DNA of 64,000 nt, taken from positions 44,773-108,772 of the forward strand of contig CANNZV010002589.1 in assembly GCA_947561585.1 (NCBI GenBank), in the 5' to 3' direction. This DNA comes from Caprella mutica. Taxonomy: Eukaryota; Arthropoda; Malacostraca; Amphipoda; Caprellidae. Shown here one piece after another: positions 25,424 to 48,268 of the stretch (within the stretch, counting starts at the first letter, position 1; each line of letters opens with the position of its first letter). The notes under the pieces are model-generated. The model was not told where the DNA came from. It saw nothing but the letters and a program-made list of their open reading frames with translations, and ran no database searches. The translations under genes and the position numbers were made by a program.

Positions 25424-26723
25424 ATTGCACTTTTGACAAAACTCACGCTCAGCGCCAAGCAGCATAATTCTGAACGCCAATTTGTTCAGCCCAGGGGTCC
25501 TCGAGATCATCAGCACACTGCAGGAACATGATTTTGATGCGTACATTGTCGGAGGCGCAGTGCGTGACTCCCTCCTCAACATCCGACCCAAAGACTTTGA
25601 TGTGGCCACCAACGCCAAGCCTGAAGAGATTGTGCGTTTGTTTAAACGCTCCAAAATCATTGGTCGACGTTTTAAAATTGTCCATATCTATCATCGCAAA
25701 GACGTCATTGAAGTCACCACTTTTCGCGGCTCACACACCAGCCAGCAGTTGAAGCGTGCACAAACAGACGAAGGCTTATTGCTCTCGGACAATAACTACG
25801 GCTCACTTGAAGAAGACGCACAGCGTCGTGATTTTTCCGCCAATGCGCTGTATTACAATCCCAGCACCAACGAAATCATCGACCATTGCAATGGGTTTGA
25901 TGCCATACAAAATAAGACCTTAGCCATCATTGGCGACCCTGAAACACGTTTCCGAGAAGACCCCGTTCGCATGTTGCGCGCAATTCGCTTACAAGCAAAA
26001 CTGCCCATGCATGTTGACGACGCCACCTACCAAGTGATTTTGACCTTGCAACCACTGTTGCAGCAAGTACCACCAGCCCGTTTGTTTGACGAAATCCTCA
26101 AGCTCATTATGAACGGCTACTCACACCCCAGTTTCCTTGCGCTAAACGATGCGAACTTACTTCAAGAGCTGATTCCAGCAGCTGCACACCACTTTAACGA
26201 CAATGCGGTCATTCAAACATTCTACGCCCATGCATTGATCAACTCCGACAAACGCGTCGCCAATCACCAGCCAATCACACCCAGCTTTTTACTGGCGGTG
26301 TTTTTATGGCCCGAAGTGCAACACAAACTGGCGCAATTAGAGCAACAAGGCCAACAACTGAGCCATCAAGACGCACTGTCGCATGCCATGCATTTCACCC
26401 TCGAAGAACAGCATGCAACCTCCAGCATTCCCAAACGTTTTCAATCCATGATCCGCGAAATTTGGCAGCTGCAATCACGTTTAGCGCGACAACATCAACA
26501 CACCAAAAAAGCCAAAGCGCTGCTCACACACCCTCGTTTTAGAGCCGCCTATGACTTTTTATTACTCAGAGAAAGCAGTGGCGAAAGCGATTCAAACCTC
26601 GCGCCATGGTGGACCAGCTTCCAAACCACCCATGCCGACATCTTAGAAGCCGCAAAGCAAGAACGAGCTCAACTCAACCGACAGCGCGCTAAAAGCAGAG
26701 CCCGACGCACGCGCAAACGCTAG
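25424..26723 (+). pseudogene. pcnB: Poly(A) polymerase I, non-AUG start and one frame break
   Basis: Adds 3' poly(A) tails that promote RNA decay. The nucleotidyltransferase head YIVGGAVRDSLLNIRPKDFDVATNA is followed by RRFKIVHIYHRKDVIEVTTFRG, the DFSANALYYNP block and EDPVRMLRAIRL. The C-terminus is very basic (RARRTRKR). The family N-terminal motif (KQHNSERQFV) lies in a different frame and joins after removal of one C near 25487 (GTTCAGC). In that frame there is no ATG, GTG or CTG between the TAG at 25418 and the conserved region. The only candidates are ATT at 25424 and TTG at 25433. Escherichia coli pcnB is known to start at AUU. folK follows in the usual order. Confidence 0.88.
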
Positions 26724-26741
26724 GCACATGAGACGGACTCC

Positions 26742-27284
26742 ATGAGCGATCACGCAGCATTCAACAACACCGCATACATTGGCTTAGGCAGTAATTTAGG
26801 CGACTCACTGACACTACTCACCCAAGCAACCACCACGATCGATCAGCACCCTGACATGCGCCTGAAACAATGCTCGTCGTGGTATCGAAACCCCGCTCTG
26901 GTGATAGAAACACCAAGCACCGACTCAACCACACCATCAACACACAACGATTACCTCAATGGGGTCATCAAGCTCCGTACACGCTTGTCTCCAATGGCGC
27001 TGCTTGATGCCATGCAACACATTGAGCAACACTATGGTCGTGTCCGCACTGAGGTTCGCTGGGAAGACAGAACCTTGGACTTAGATATCCTGCTCTACAA
27101 CAACGAACGCATGCACTCTGAACGGCTTACCTTACCTCACTCACAGCTTCACACACGTGCGTTTGTACTCTATCCCTTGCACGAGATTGAGCCCGATTTG
27201 ACCTTACCAGACGGTCGCAAACTCAGCAGCCTTCTCGACCAAGTATCCAATAAAGAGTTAGAAAAAATTGACGTTTCAAGCTAG
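26742..27284 (+). CDS. folK: HPPK, folate biosynthesis
   Basis: Transfers pyrophosphate from ATP to 6-hydroxymethyl-7,8-dihydropterin. It is 180 aa. YIGLGSNLGDSLTLL at the N-terminus, SSWYRNPAL, DYLNGVIKL (pterin-site Asn), and the signature WEDRTLDLDILLYNN carrying the two magnesium Asp residues identify it. A 10-residue insert (ETPSTDSTTPSTHNDY) lengthens the loop after the second strand. It lies between pcnB and the deoxynucleoside kinase in a rightward pan/fol cluster. Confidence 0.95.
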   Translation: MSDHAAFNNTAYIGLGSNLGDSLTLLTQATTTIDQHPDMRLKQCSSWYRNPALVIETPSTDSTTPSTHNDYLNGVIKLRTRLSPMALLDAMQHIEQHYGRVRTEVRWEDRTLDLDILLYNNERMHSERLTLPHSQLHTRAFVLYPLHEIEPDLTLPDGRKLSSLLDQVSNKELEKIDVSS

Positions 27285-40798: not shown

Positions 40799-43256
<2,458 letters not shown>

Positions 43257-44879: not shown

Positions 44880-46312
44880 ATGCAAAACATACTGCTCATA
44901 GACAGTAATCCAGAACGCATTGAACAGCTCAAAGAGCAGCTGGATCAAGATTTCAAAGTGCATTCTGCTGATTCAGTATCGAAGGCAGAATCGCTTAAGT
45001 CCACTAAATCATTCCATATAACGGTTTGTGAGCACTCACTTTTAGACAACTCCATTGCCCTGCTTAACCGCTTTGACAACCTGGCACCGGTCATCATCAC
45101 CGACCAAAAACCAACCGTCGAGAAGGCAGTCCAAACCATCAAATCCGGTGCATACACGTATTTACCCAACACTGAAACACAAGACCTCAAAGCGCTGTTA
45201 AAAAGCCATTCATGACGTGTCTAAGCACATTGCACCGAAGCGTACAAAAACACACGGCATGATTGGCCAATGCGATGCCATGCGTGAGGTTCACCATTAC
45301 ATCTCCAAAACCGCCCCAACGGACTGCAATGTGTTGGTGCTGGGTGAAACGGGGACGGGTAAAGAGCTCGCCGCAAAAGCGATTCATGACAACAGCAACC
45401 GTAATGAACAACCCCTAATCAGCGTCAACTGTGCCGCGATCCCTCACACACTGATTGAGTCCGAATTATTTGGCTATGAAAAAGGCGCGTTTACAGGCGC
45501 AAACACCACCCGACAAGGTCTGATCGAAGCCGCAAACAACGGCACCTTATTCCTTGACGAAATTGGTGAATTGCCATTAGAAGCACAAGCAAGACTGCTT
45601 CGATTCATTCAAGAAGGCGAAATCCGACGCATTGGTTCGACCTTACCGAGAAAGGTCAACGTTCGACTGATTTCAGCCACTCACCGTGATTTAAAGGCCT
45701 TATCAGCAGACAACAAATTTCGTGAAGATTTATTCTATCGCATCAATGTCATGCAAATAAACTTACCGGCCTTACGCCACCGTGGTAATGACATCCTGAT
45801 CATCGCAAATGAAATGCTATTAAGAGCATGCAAACGCTTCAAATGCCCACCGAAACAGTTTTCAGACACCGTTACTGAGCGCATGATCCAATACAACTGG
45901 CCGGGCAACATTCGTGAATTGGAAAATGTGATCGAACGCGCGGTTATTTTTATCGGACGTCGGCAACACCCTCATCAACGACGAGTTGATCCCGCTGCAA
46001 ATAAACACAGGCGCCGAGCGCACCGAATCGGTAAGAGCCAGCAACAGTGTCATTCGACCCAGTAAGGCCTCCAACAAGCACGTTTCCACGCCTGTGAGTG
46101 ATTTGGCACGTAAAGCAGCCGATCCCAAAAACCAGCTCACAGAGCAAGCCAAAGGACTCTCGCTCGAAGATTACTTTTTAAGCTTTGTGCTCAAGCACCA
46201 AGACACCATGAGCGAAACCGAATTGGCTAAAAAATTGGGCATTAGCCGAAAATGCTTGTGGGAAAGACGTAATCGCTTAGGCATTGCACGCAATAAAGCC
46301 TTGAAATCGTAA
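44880..46312 (+). pseudogene. cbrB: CbrB-type sigma-54-dependent response regulator, two frame breaks
   Basis: NtrC-family activator. Residues 1-108 form a receiver-like domain, starting MQNILLIDSN. An AAA+ domain follows with Walker A GETGTGKE, the sigma-54 contact GAFTGA ([12 protein letters not shown]) and Walker [12 protein letters not shown]. The C-terminal Fis-type helix-turn-helix is LSLEDYFLSFVLKHQDTMSE then LGISRKCLWERRNRLGI. As I recall it, this end is diagnostic of CbrB, the catabolic regulator of pseudomonads. Two +1 shifts, in A runs at 45200 and T runs near 45950, are homopolymer type. The receiver looks non-phosphorylatable: the usual Asp is Glu51 and the usual Lys is Asn97. 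No cbrA kinase gene is adjacent. A sigma-54 promoter and candidate sRNA follow directly. Confidence 0.78.
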
Positions 46313-46343: not shown

Positions 46344-46388
46344 AAGGTAACACTTCTCTCTGAGCTAGACGGAAATAAGGTAACACTT
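46344..46388 (+). promoter_or_regulatory. Candidate upstream activator sites for the sigma-54 promoter
   Basis: Two identical 12-mers AAGGTAACACTT at 46344-46355 and 46377-46388, 33 bp apart (three helical turns). They lie 72 and 105 bp upstream of the -24 GG, a normal place for activators of the NtrC family. The GTAACA part recalls the TGTTAC/GTAACA words described for CbrB sites. A third, degenerate copy (ACACTT at 46328) lies 22 bp before the matching part of the first. Binding is inferred. Confidence 0.65.
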
Positions 46389-46457: not shown

Positions 46458-46474
46458 CTGGCACGTGAATTGCA
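46458..46474 (+). promoter_or_regulatory. Consensus sigma-54 promoter
   Basis: CTGGCACG-TGAA-TTGCA. The GG (46460-46461) and GC (46472-46473) dinucleotides are 12 bp apart, as required, and every base of TGGCACG-N4-TTGCW is matched. Transcription should start near 46484, just before a run of AAN triplets. No coding frame follows before the terminator at 46563-46589. Confidence 0.88.
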
Positions 46475-46483
46475 TTATATAAG

Positions 46484-46589
46484 GTAATAAGAATAAAATT
46501 AATAATAAAAATAATAGCTACTTAATAAAAACAATAATATAAACTTTTGACCAAAGATTGAGAAGGGGGAATTTAATTCCCCCTTTTTT
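46484..46589 (+). ncRNA. Candidate CrcZ-like decoy small RNA
   Basis: A stretch of about 106 nt runs from the sigma-54 start to the end of a strong intrinsic terminator, with no reading frame of interest. Three clusters of AAN triplets (AATAAGAATAA at 46486; AATAATAAAAATAATA at 46501; AATAAAAACAATAATA at 46524) fit the AAnAAnAA motif bound by Hfq with Crc. This is how CrcZ, CrcY and CrcX sequester these proteins in pseudomonads. Its place directly after a CbrB-type gene repeats the cbrB-crcZ order. It is much shorter than CrcZ (about 400 nt). The promoter, motifs and terminator are seen; the RNA and its role are inferred. Confidence 0.7.
46563..46589. terminator. Strong terminator of the candidate sRNA
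   Basis: AAGGGGGAA-TTTAA-TTCCCCCTT with a following T run. Nine-base stem with five GC pairs. It also separates this unit from the convergent lpdA. Confidence 0.92.

Positions 46590-46770: not shown

Positions 46771-48268
<1,498 letters not shown>

Follow-up and report, generated by a model that had tools for sequence, protein, structure and literature searches.

Immediately downstream of a cbrB gene, the 64,000-nucleotide stretch of DNA analysed here (the window) carries a predicted small RNA of about 106 nt, which is quite probably a minimal CrcZ-type decoy of Hfq, transcribed by CbrB together with RpoN RNA polymerase in a circuit whose input arm is reduced. Judged from the sequence, a decoy for three Hfq hexamers under a kinase-independent CbrB is the most likely reading of the locus. 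What stands out is how small the RNA is, together with a CbrB that can apparently do without phosphorylation.

Source of the DNA and Gene Neighbourhood

The contig holding the window (C2589) is a bacterial contig inside a eukaryote-sized assembly (903 Mb, 7200 contigs), and its source bacterium appears to be related to Pseudomonas. In a comparison by SucA, similarity was 94%, 83% and 75% to three proteins that are unplaced; to the other matches listed, including those from Dasania, Zhongshania, Halioglobus and Thalassolituus, it was about 62–66%.

According to names assigned from translations, cbrB is flanked in the window by a holA-like gene and an lpd-like gene. The latter (46771..48217, minus strand) is the next gene after the RNA and contains a run of N (47353-47639). 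Since it is convergent with the RNA, an interpretation of the RNA as leader of a downstream gene was rejected. The pcnB-folK pair (25482..27284, plus strand; names likewise from translations), which directly follows cbrB and the RNA in most relatives, lies about 20 kb from cbrB here, and a search of 104 kb of the contig revealed no CbrA ortholog. The locus therefore does not have the order cbrA-cbrB-RNA-pcnB, and its placement outside the cbrAB-crcZ-pcnB arrangement, as claimed in the original prediction, was correct.

A leuS gene (40808-43256; name from translation) is broken into several frames; this split and the N run in the lpd-like gene point to errors in sequencing or assembly, or else to masking. 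Outside the window, the contig carries an open frame of 4463 codons on the minus strand (C2589:13769-27157).

Sigma-54 Promoter and Candidate CbrB Subsites

A search with the pattern TGGCACG-N4-TTGCA revealed a sole perfect match in the window, TGGCACGTGAATTGCA at 46459..46474 on the plus strand, with GG at 46460-46461 and GC at 46472-46473; the perfect sigma-54 promoter that had been claimed is thus present, 3' of cbrB. When up to two mismatches were allowed, 8 matches were found in the window against 10.6 expected, so that a promoter that loose would, alone, be unconvincing. On 104 kb of the contig, both strands included, seven sigma-54-like sites were detected, and ARN triplets follow only the one at 46459-46474.

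In PMC6296734, the CbrB subsites of P. putida are given as TGTTAC (F) and GTAACA (R). Upstream of the window promoter, two matches to GTAACA were located on the plus strand as candidate CbrB subsites, one at 46347..46352 (−112 from the promoter start) and one at 46380..46385 (−79), the position of the second being conserved in relatives; an F site (TGTTAC) was not found there. GTAACA occurs seven times on the plus strand of the window, and 29 of 100 window shuffles contained the two-GTAACA pattern at the window spacing, with one mismatch allowed, one or more times. As the motif is not rare and the spacing of the pair is common in shuffles, the weight rests on the conserved position.

This position was evaluated in a one-genome-per-species scan, which yielded at least 547 confirmed CbrB C-termini, of which the best 80 were taken (33 Pseudomonadaceae and 47 others, as judged by record title). 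Among these best 80 of at least 547, R lies at −82 to −78 in all 33 Pseudomonadaceae and in 37 of the 42 other promoter-bearing loci, compared with 26 of 1725 other 5-nt bins as control. In the layout usual for this set, F is found around −123, followed by one R around −102 and another around −80, and the outer candidate sites of the window depart from it; F is at −112 or −113 in L013, L026, L031 and L045.

Composition and Termination of the Predicted RNA

With the start deduced from promoter spacing and the end from the terminator, the predicted decoy RNA extends over 46484..46589 on the plus strand (about 106 nt; the terminator rule applied to the relatives gives 107 nt). A triplet scan revealed three ARN clusters on this strand, at 46486..46497 (4 triplets), 46501..46518 (6 triplets) and 46524..46538 (5 triplets), so that the RNA has several (ARN)n runs with n ≥ 4 and the three clusters in about 106 nt described originally are there. 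The 77-nt core contains 15 triplets in runs of at least four, a count that none of 2000 dinucleotide shuffles and none of 2000 mononucleotide shuffles attained. The RNA locus is also the densest ARN stretch of the window: elsewhere, on both strands, every 60-nt piece stays below 12 triplets.

Folding placed an intrinsic terminator at 46560..46589 (plus strand), made up of a 13-bp hairpin with arms 46560-46572 and 46576-46588 and a T run. With −18.2 kcal/mol (z −2.6), this hairpin dominates the predicted fold, and 3 of 200 shuffles did as well, in keeping with the strong terminator that had been proposed. None of the three plus-strand frames is open through the RNA; a coding region was rejected on this ground, and the assignment as non-coding stands.

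The Rfam model of CrcZ (RF01675), named in the original prediction as a check, did not recognise the RNA: searching 601 bases gave a score of 15.0 bits at E 0.079, with the cut-off at 95 bits, and unrelated Rfam families scored as high on the RNA region. In the Rfam scan of the window every family remained below its cut-off, so that membership in the CrcZ or any other Rfam family was rejected; sraA, the L20 leader and other weak matches were far under their cut-offs and rested largely on the terminator hairpin. Among 24 other loci, the CrcZ model matched three, namely the three Pseudomonas ones, at about 350 bits.

Occurrence of the Module among Relatives

Beyond the Pseudomonadaceae, the 80 loci come from Cellvibrionaceae, Microbulbiferaceae, Spongiibacteraceae, Halieaceae and Porticoccaceae, as well as from Oceanospirillaceae, Halomonadaceae, Saccharospirillaceae and Endozoicomonadaceae. 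Within these best 80 of at least 547, a promoter was present at most 750 nt 3' of cbrB in 33/33 Pseudomonadaceae and in 42/45 others with enough sequence, the count leaving out L002 and L047, whose sequence ends too soon; no promoter follows cbrB in L004, L005 and L051. The control values were 9/375 for upstream pieces and 40/3900 for shuffles. Eight or more ARN triplets in the 100 nt after the promoter were counted in 33/33 and 40/42 loci of the same set and in 0/291 coding controls; dinucleotide shuffles of the relatives' own 100-nt segments reached this number in 137 of 1500 cases, implying that A-richness explains a small part.

The gene cbrA lies upstream of cbrB in 74 of the best 80 of at least 547 relatives; among the remaining six, the sequences of L060 and L065 end inside cbrB, and none was present in L016, L026, L031 and L045. 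Equally, pcnB is found downstream of cbrB in 74 of these 80, and four of the six exceptions (L001, L002, L008 and L047) end soon after cbrB. In L005, the receiver of CbrB is joined straight to the C-terminal DNA-binding segment, with the AAA+ sigma-54 domain missing, and a pcnB frame follows cbrB directly, with no such RNA downstream. Tandem CrcZ-like RNAs or terminator units after cbrB were observed in L001, L021, L017, L036 and L058.

For a census, 194 genomes were sampled evenly from the order to which the P. putida genome G001 belongs (Pseudomonadales). The CbrB C-terminus was detected in 174 of them, and 90 of the 174 were examined, comprising the 30 best and every second of ranks 31–149; at least three (G014, G015 and G016) overlap the first 80. 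A promoter with at least six ARN triplets was found in 65 of the 90 loci and in 0 of 148 opposite-strand controls, so the search of related genomes came out in favour of the proposed design. R is at −83 to −77 in 51 of the 65, 8 have two sites, and 25 carry the box GAGACCTGGATGGGGA considered below. The strict test excluded 25 of the 90 loci, 2 of which have short ends (L188 and L209): in 14, any 100 nt of the downstream sequence examined contains 0–5 triplets, and the other 11 have 6–15 triplets, but with promoter or spacing outside the rule. The cbrB-promoter-ARN module is common in the order, not universal.

These counts also bear on the view that the locus is a chance AT-rich intergenic gap. 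Two-mismatch promoter matches are indeed no commoner than chance, as that view would have it, but no shuffle out of 2000 reached the triplet count, no other 60-nt piece of the window equals the locus, and the order of parts recurs in 65/90 relatives against 0/148 controls. Chance was rejected as scarcely credible.

Lengths of the RNAs and the Pre-Terminator Box

Lengths refer to those 56 of 77 promoters after which the terminator rule gave a call, in some cases a weak one; after the other 21 it gave none. The shortest RNAs measure 96–97 nt (L016 and L007) and those of Zhongshania 111–114 nt; RNAs of about 96–145 nt after cbrB also occur in Spongiibacteraceae, Halieaceae and Porticoccaceae. Longer forms are of about 370 nt in many Pseudomonas and of 506–514 nt in Oceanospirillum. 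Overall, the smallest of the natural putative decoys has about 96 nt and a single cluster, the largest about 510 nt and eight clusters. The compact CrcZ-like design that had been proposed for the window holds in that relatives show the same order of parts, but the short form is not unique to it, being found in other families.

In many short CrcZ-like RNAs outside Pseudomonas, a conserved box close to GAGACCTGGATGGGGA runs into the terminator stem. It was found in 13 of the best 80 of at least 547 loci, none of them Pseudomonas (e.g., L007, L021 and L039), at 12–16 of 16 letters, the other loci matching at 11 letters or fewer. The window RNA lacks it, its 9/16 letters being at the level of loci without the box. 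Conceivably, the box acts as a seed for base pairing or as a protein site.

Its presence before the terminator in many short relatives (13/80 and 25/65), where a decoy has no need of it, favours an ordinary Hfq-dependent base-pairing small RNA, whose ARN triplets would recruit Hfq while the segment around 46539-46560 would pair with target mRNAs. For the window we consider this unlikely, as the box is absent and as long and short forms have only ARN clusters, promoter and terminator in common. The Hfq decoy is the reading followed from here on.

CbrB and Its Receiver Domain

The gene upstream of the RNA (44880..46312, plus strand) was recovered in three pieces, 44880-45215, 45217-46065 and 45986-46312, and is broken in the assembly by frameshifts at two places, around 45212 and around 45970. 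Read across these, its product best matched the MAG protein P0001 (86%), the next-best matches being CbrB-like proteins at about 50%; the 120 matches listed end in close variants of LSLEDYFxxFVLxHQxxMSETELAxKLGxSRKCLWERR. The product has an AAA+ domain (241 bits, Pfam), the GAFTGA motif and the LSLEDYF...SRKCLWERR C-terminus. By homology, domains and C-terminus, the gene is a CbrB ortholog, confirming the CbrB-type gene said to lie directly upstream. The frameshifts are most likely assembly errors, because the leuS frames are also split and P0001 is unbroken.

The receiver domain (44880..45215, plus strand) lacks the phosphorylation residues according to alignment and Pfam: the acid pair E-D is changed to D-S, the phosphoacceptor D to E and the K to N, so that neither the phosphoacceptor Asp nor the conserved Lys expected of CbrB is there. 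The Pfam receiver score was 23.1 bits, under the cut-off of 30.2. The Asp is missing in 6 of 197 aligned rows, namely the window, P0001, P0002, P0051, P0106 and L016. From these changes, the phosphate switch of the window CbrB looks broken. In the CbrB tree, the window groups with P0001 and P0002 on long branches, which leave its place unsure.

The best CbrA match in the assembly, where the genome of the bacterium may be incomplete, scored 244 bits; in relatives, CbrA orthologs scored 955–1156 bits and other matching proteins 191–212 bits. The L016 genome gave no CbrA match at E 1e-40, and its CbrB has N for the Asp, whereas two Porticoccus genomes without CbrA ortholog have kept the CbrB Asp (L026 and L045). 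Kinase loss and Asp loss are thus not always coupled. The absence of a detected CbrA and the degenerate receiver, neither of which the original prediction had remarked on, are the more unusual part of the locus.

They also raise the question of a relic, that is, a circuit decaying after CbrA loss, whose RNA has ceased to be made or to matter. Decay of the receiver, the lack of a detected CbrA, the position of cbrB away from pcnB and the two cbrB frameshifts would accord with this, as would L016, also without CbrA, whose weak RNA signature consists of a single 4-triplet run behind a promoter that is divergent. On the other hand, the window has kept a perfect promoter, three intact clusters and intact AAA+ and GAFTGA, the protein P0001 of a relative is unbroken, and the RNA signature persists in the two Porticoccus loci without CbrA ortholog. 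A relic is, in our judgement, improbable, and a working Hfq decoy is preferred.

Hfq, RpoN and Crc

Hfq gave 7 matches in the assembly and RpoN 12, none of the latter being assignable. The hfq-carrying contig C3223 fits the window in tetranucleotide profile: two 10-kb pieces of it gave r values of 0.64 and 0.68, and the 3.2 kb surrounding hfq gave 0.48. The corresponding values were 0.58–0.79 for stretches of the contig that holds the window and 0.05–0.37 for the other hfq contigs. The ExoIII family had 17 matches above cut-off in the assembly, none of them on C2589 or C3223.

In P. putida, crc presumably adjoins pyrE. A Crc-like gene and pyrE were found in the same stretch in 15 of 17 relatives' genomes; G009 has a Crc-like gene, with pyrE absent from the stretch examined, and G002 has a candidate outside the stretches covered. 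In L115, L120, L122, L123 and L125, a second Crc-like ExoIII-family protein exists beside the pyrE-linked one, scoring 229–281 bits against P. putida Crc.

Proposed Mechanism and Comparison with Known Systems

The sequences themselves show the promoter with its upstream candidate subsites, the three clusters and the terminator, as well as the identity of CbrB, the changes in its receiver and the fact that the module is conserved within the order. From these features, we infer transcription, CbrB control, Hfq and Crc binding and a physiological role of the RNA. CbrB would bind the upstream GTAACA sites and, with RpoN RNA polymerase, transcribe the 106-nt RNA. The three ARN clusters would each hold one Hfq hexamer by its distal face, probably together with Crc, and the Hfq held in this way would no longer exert its repression of catabolic mRNAs. 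Since no CbrA was found and the receiver is without phosphorylation residues, what governs the activity of CbrB is probably the amount of the protein itself or some other signal.

According to PMC4063720, CrcZ is 407 nt long with six (ARN)n runs of n ≥ 4, and three Hfq shifts were obtained with its initial 151 nt, which include three A-rich stretches; the three clusters of the window RNA thus match a CrcZ fragment already shown to give three shifts. Like CrcZ, CrcY and CrcX of Pseudomonas and Azotobacter, the window RNA lies after cbrB and has a sigma-54 promoter, GTAACA near −80, (ARN)n clusters of n ≥ 4 and a terminator hairpin. Unlike CrcZ, it has about one quarter of the length and three clusters instead of six, is not recognised by the Rfam model and is not placed between cbrB and pcnB; furthermore, no CbrA was found and the receiver of its regulator is degenerate. 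In size (about 96–145 nt where a terminator was called) and in having about 1–4 clusters, it resembles the short RNAs of CrcZ-like design from Spongiibacteraceae, Halieaceae and neighbours, but most of those carry the box that it lacks.

RNAs of the CsrB/RsmZ type sequester a protein through repeated short motifs, and the window RNA shares with them repeated short motifs for predicted protein sequestration; its motifs, in contrast, suit the distal face of Hfq and not CsrA, and its regulator differs. A comparison of CrcZ with CsrB/RsmZ-type RNAs is also drawn in PMC4063720.

CbrAB is called unique to, or exclusive to, Pseudomonadaceae (PMC8871633; PMC6296734), Crc is called Pseudomonad-specific (PMC9890229), P. 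putida CbrB is reported as barely dependent on phosphorylation (PMC6296734) and cbrAB transcripts are described in seawater (PMC5073097). No description of CrcZ-like RNAs outside Pseudomonadaceae was found in a literature search that left subscription journals mostly outside.

With the CbrB C-terminus in 174/194 genomes, promoter and ARN triplets in 65/90 loci and a Crc-like gene with pyrE in 15/17 genomes, the data reach beyond the published restriction to Pseudomonadaceae or Pseudomonads and suggest a carbon-control circuit of greater age, breadth and flexibility than has been described. Tentatively, we propose that CbrB of this lineage may be blind to phosphorylation, responding to its abundance or to a signal to the altered receiver, and may drive a near-minimal three-site Hfq decoy, the module being possibly ancestral to Pseudomonadales and not an invention of Pseudomonas. 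The spread of the natural putative decoys, in length (about 96 to about 510 nt) and in cluster number (one to eight), makes the number of Hfq sites needed directly testable, and lineages without CbrA but with CbrB and the RNA offer a test of whether phosphorylation matters. If the reading is true, the kinase-free CbrB branch would be a natural stripped-down CbrAB-CrcZ-Hfq circuit.
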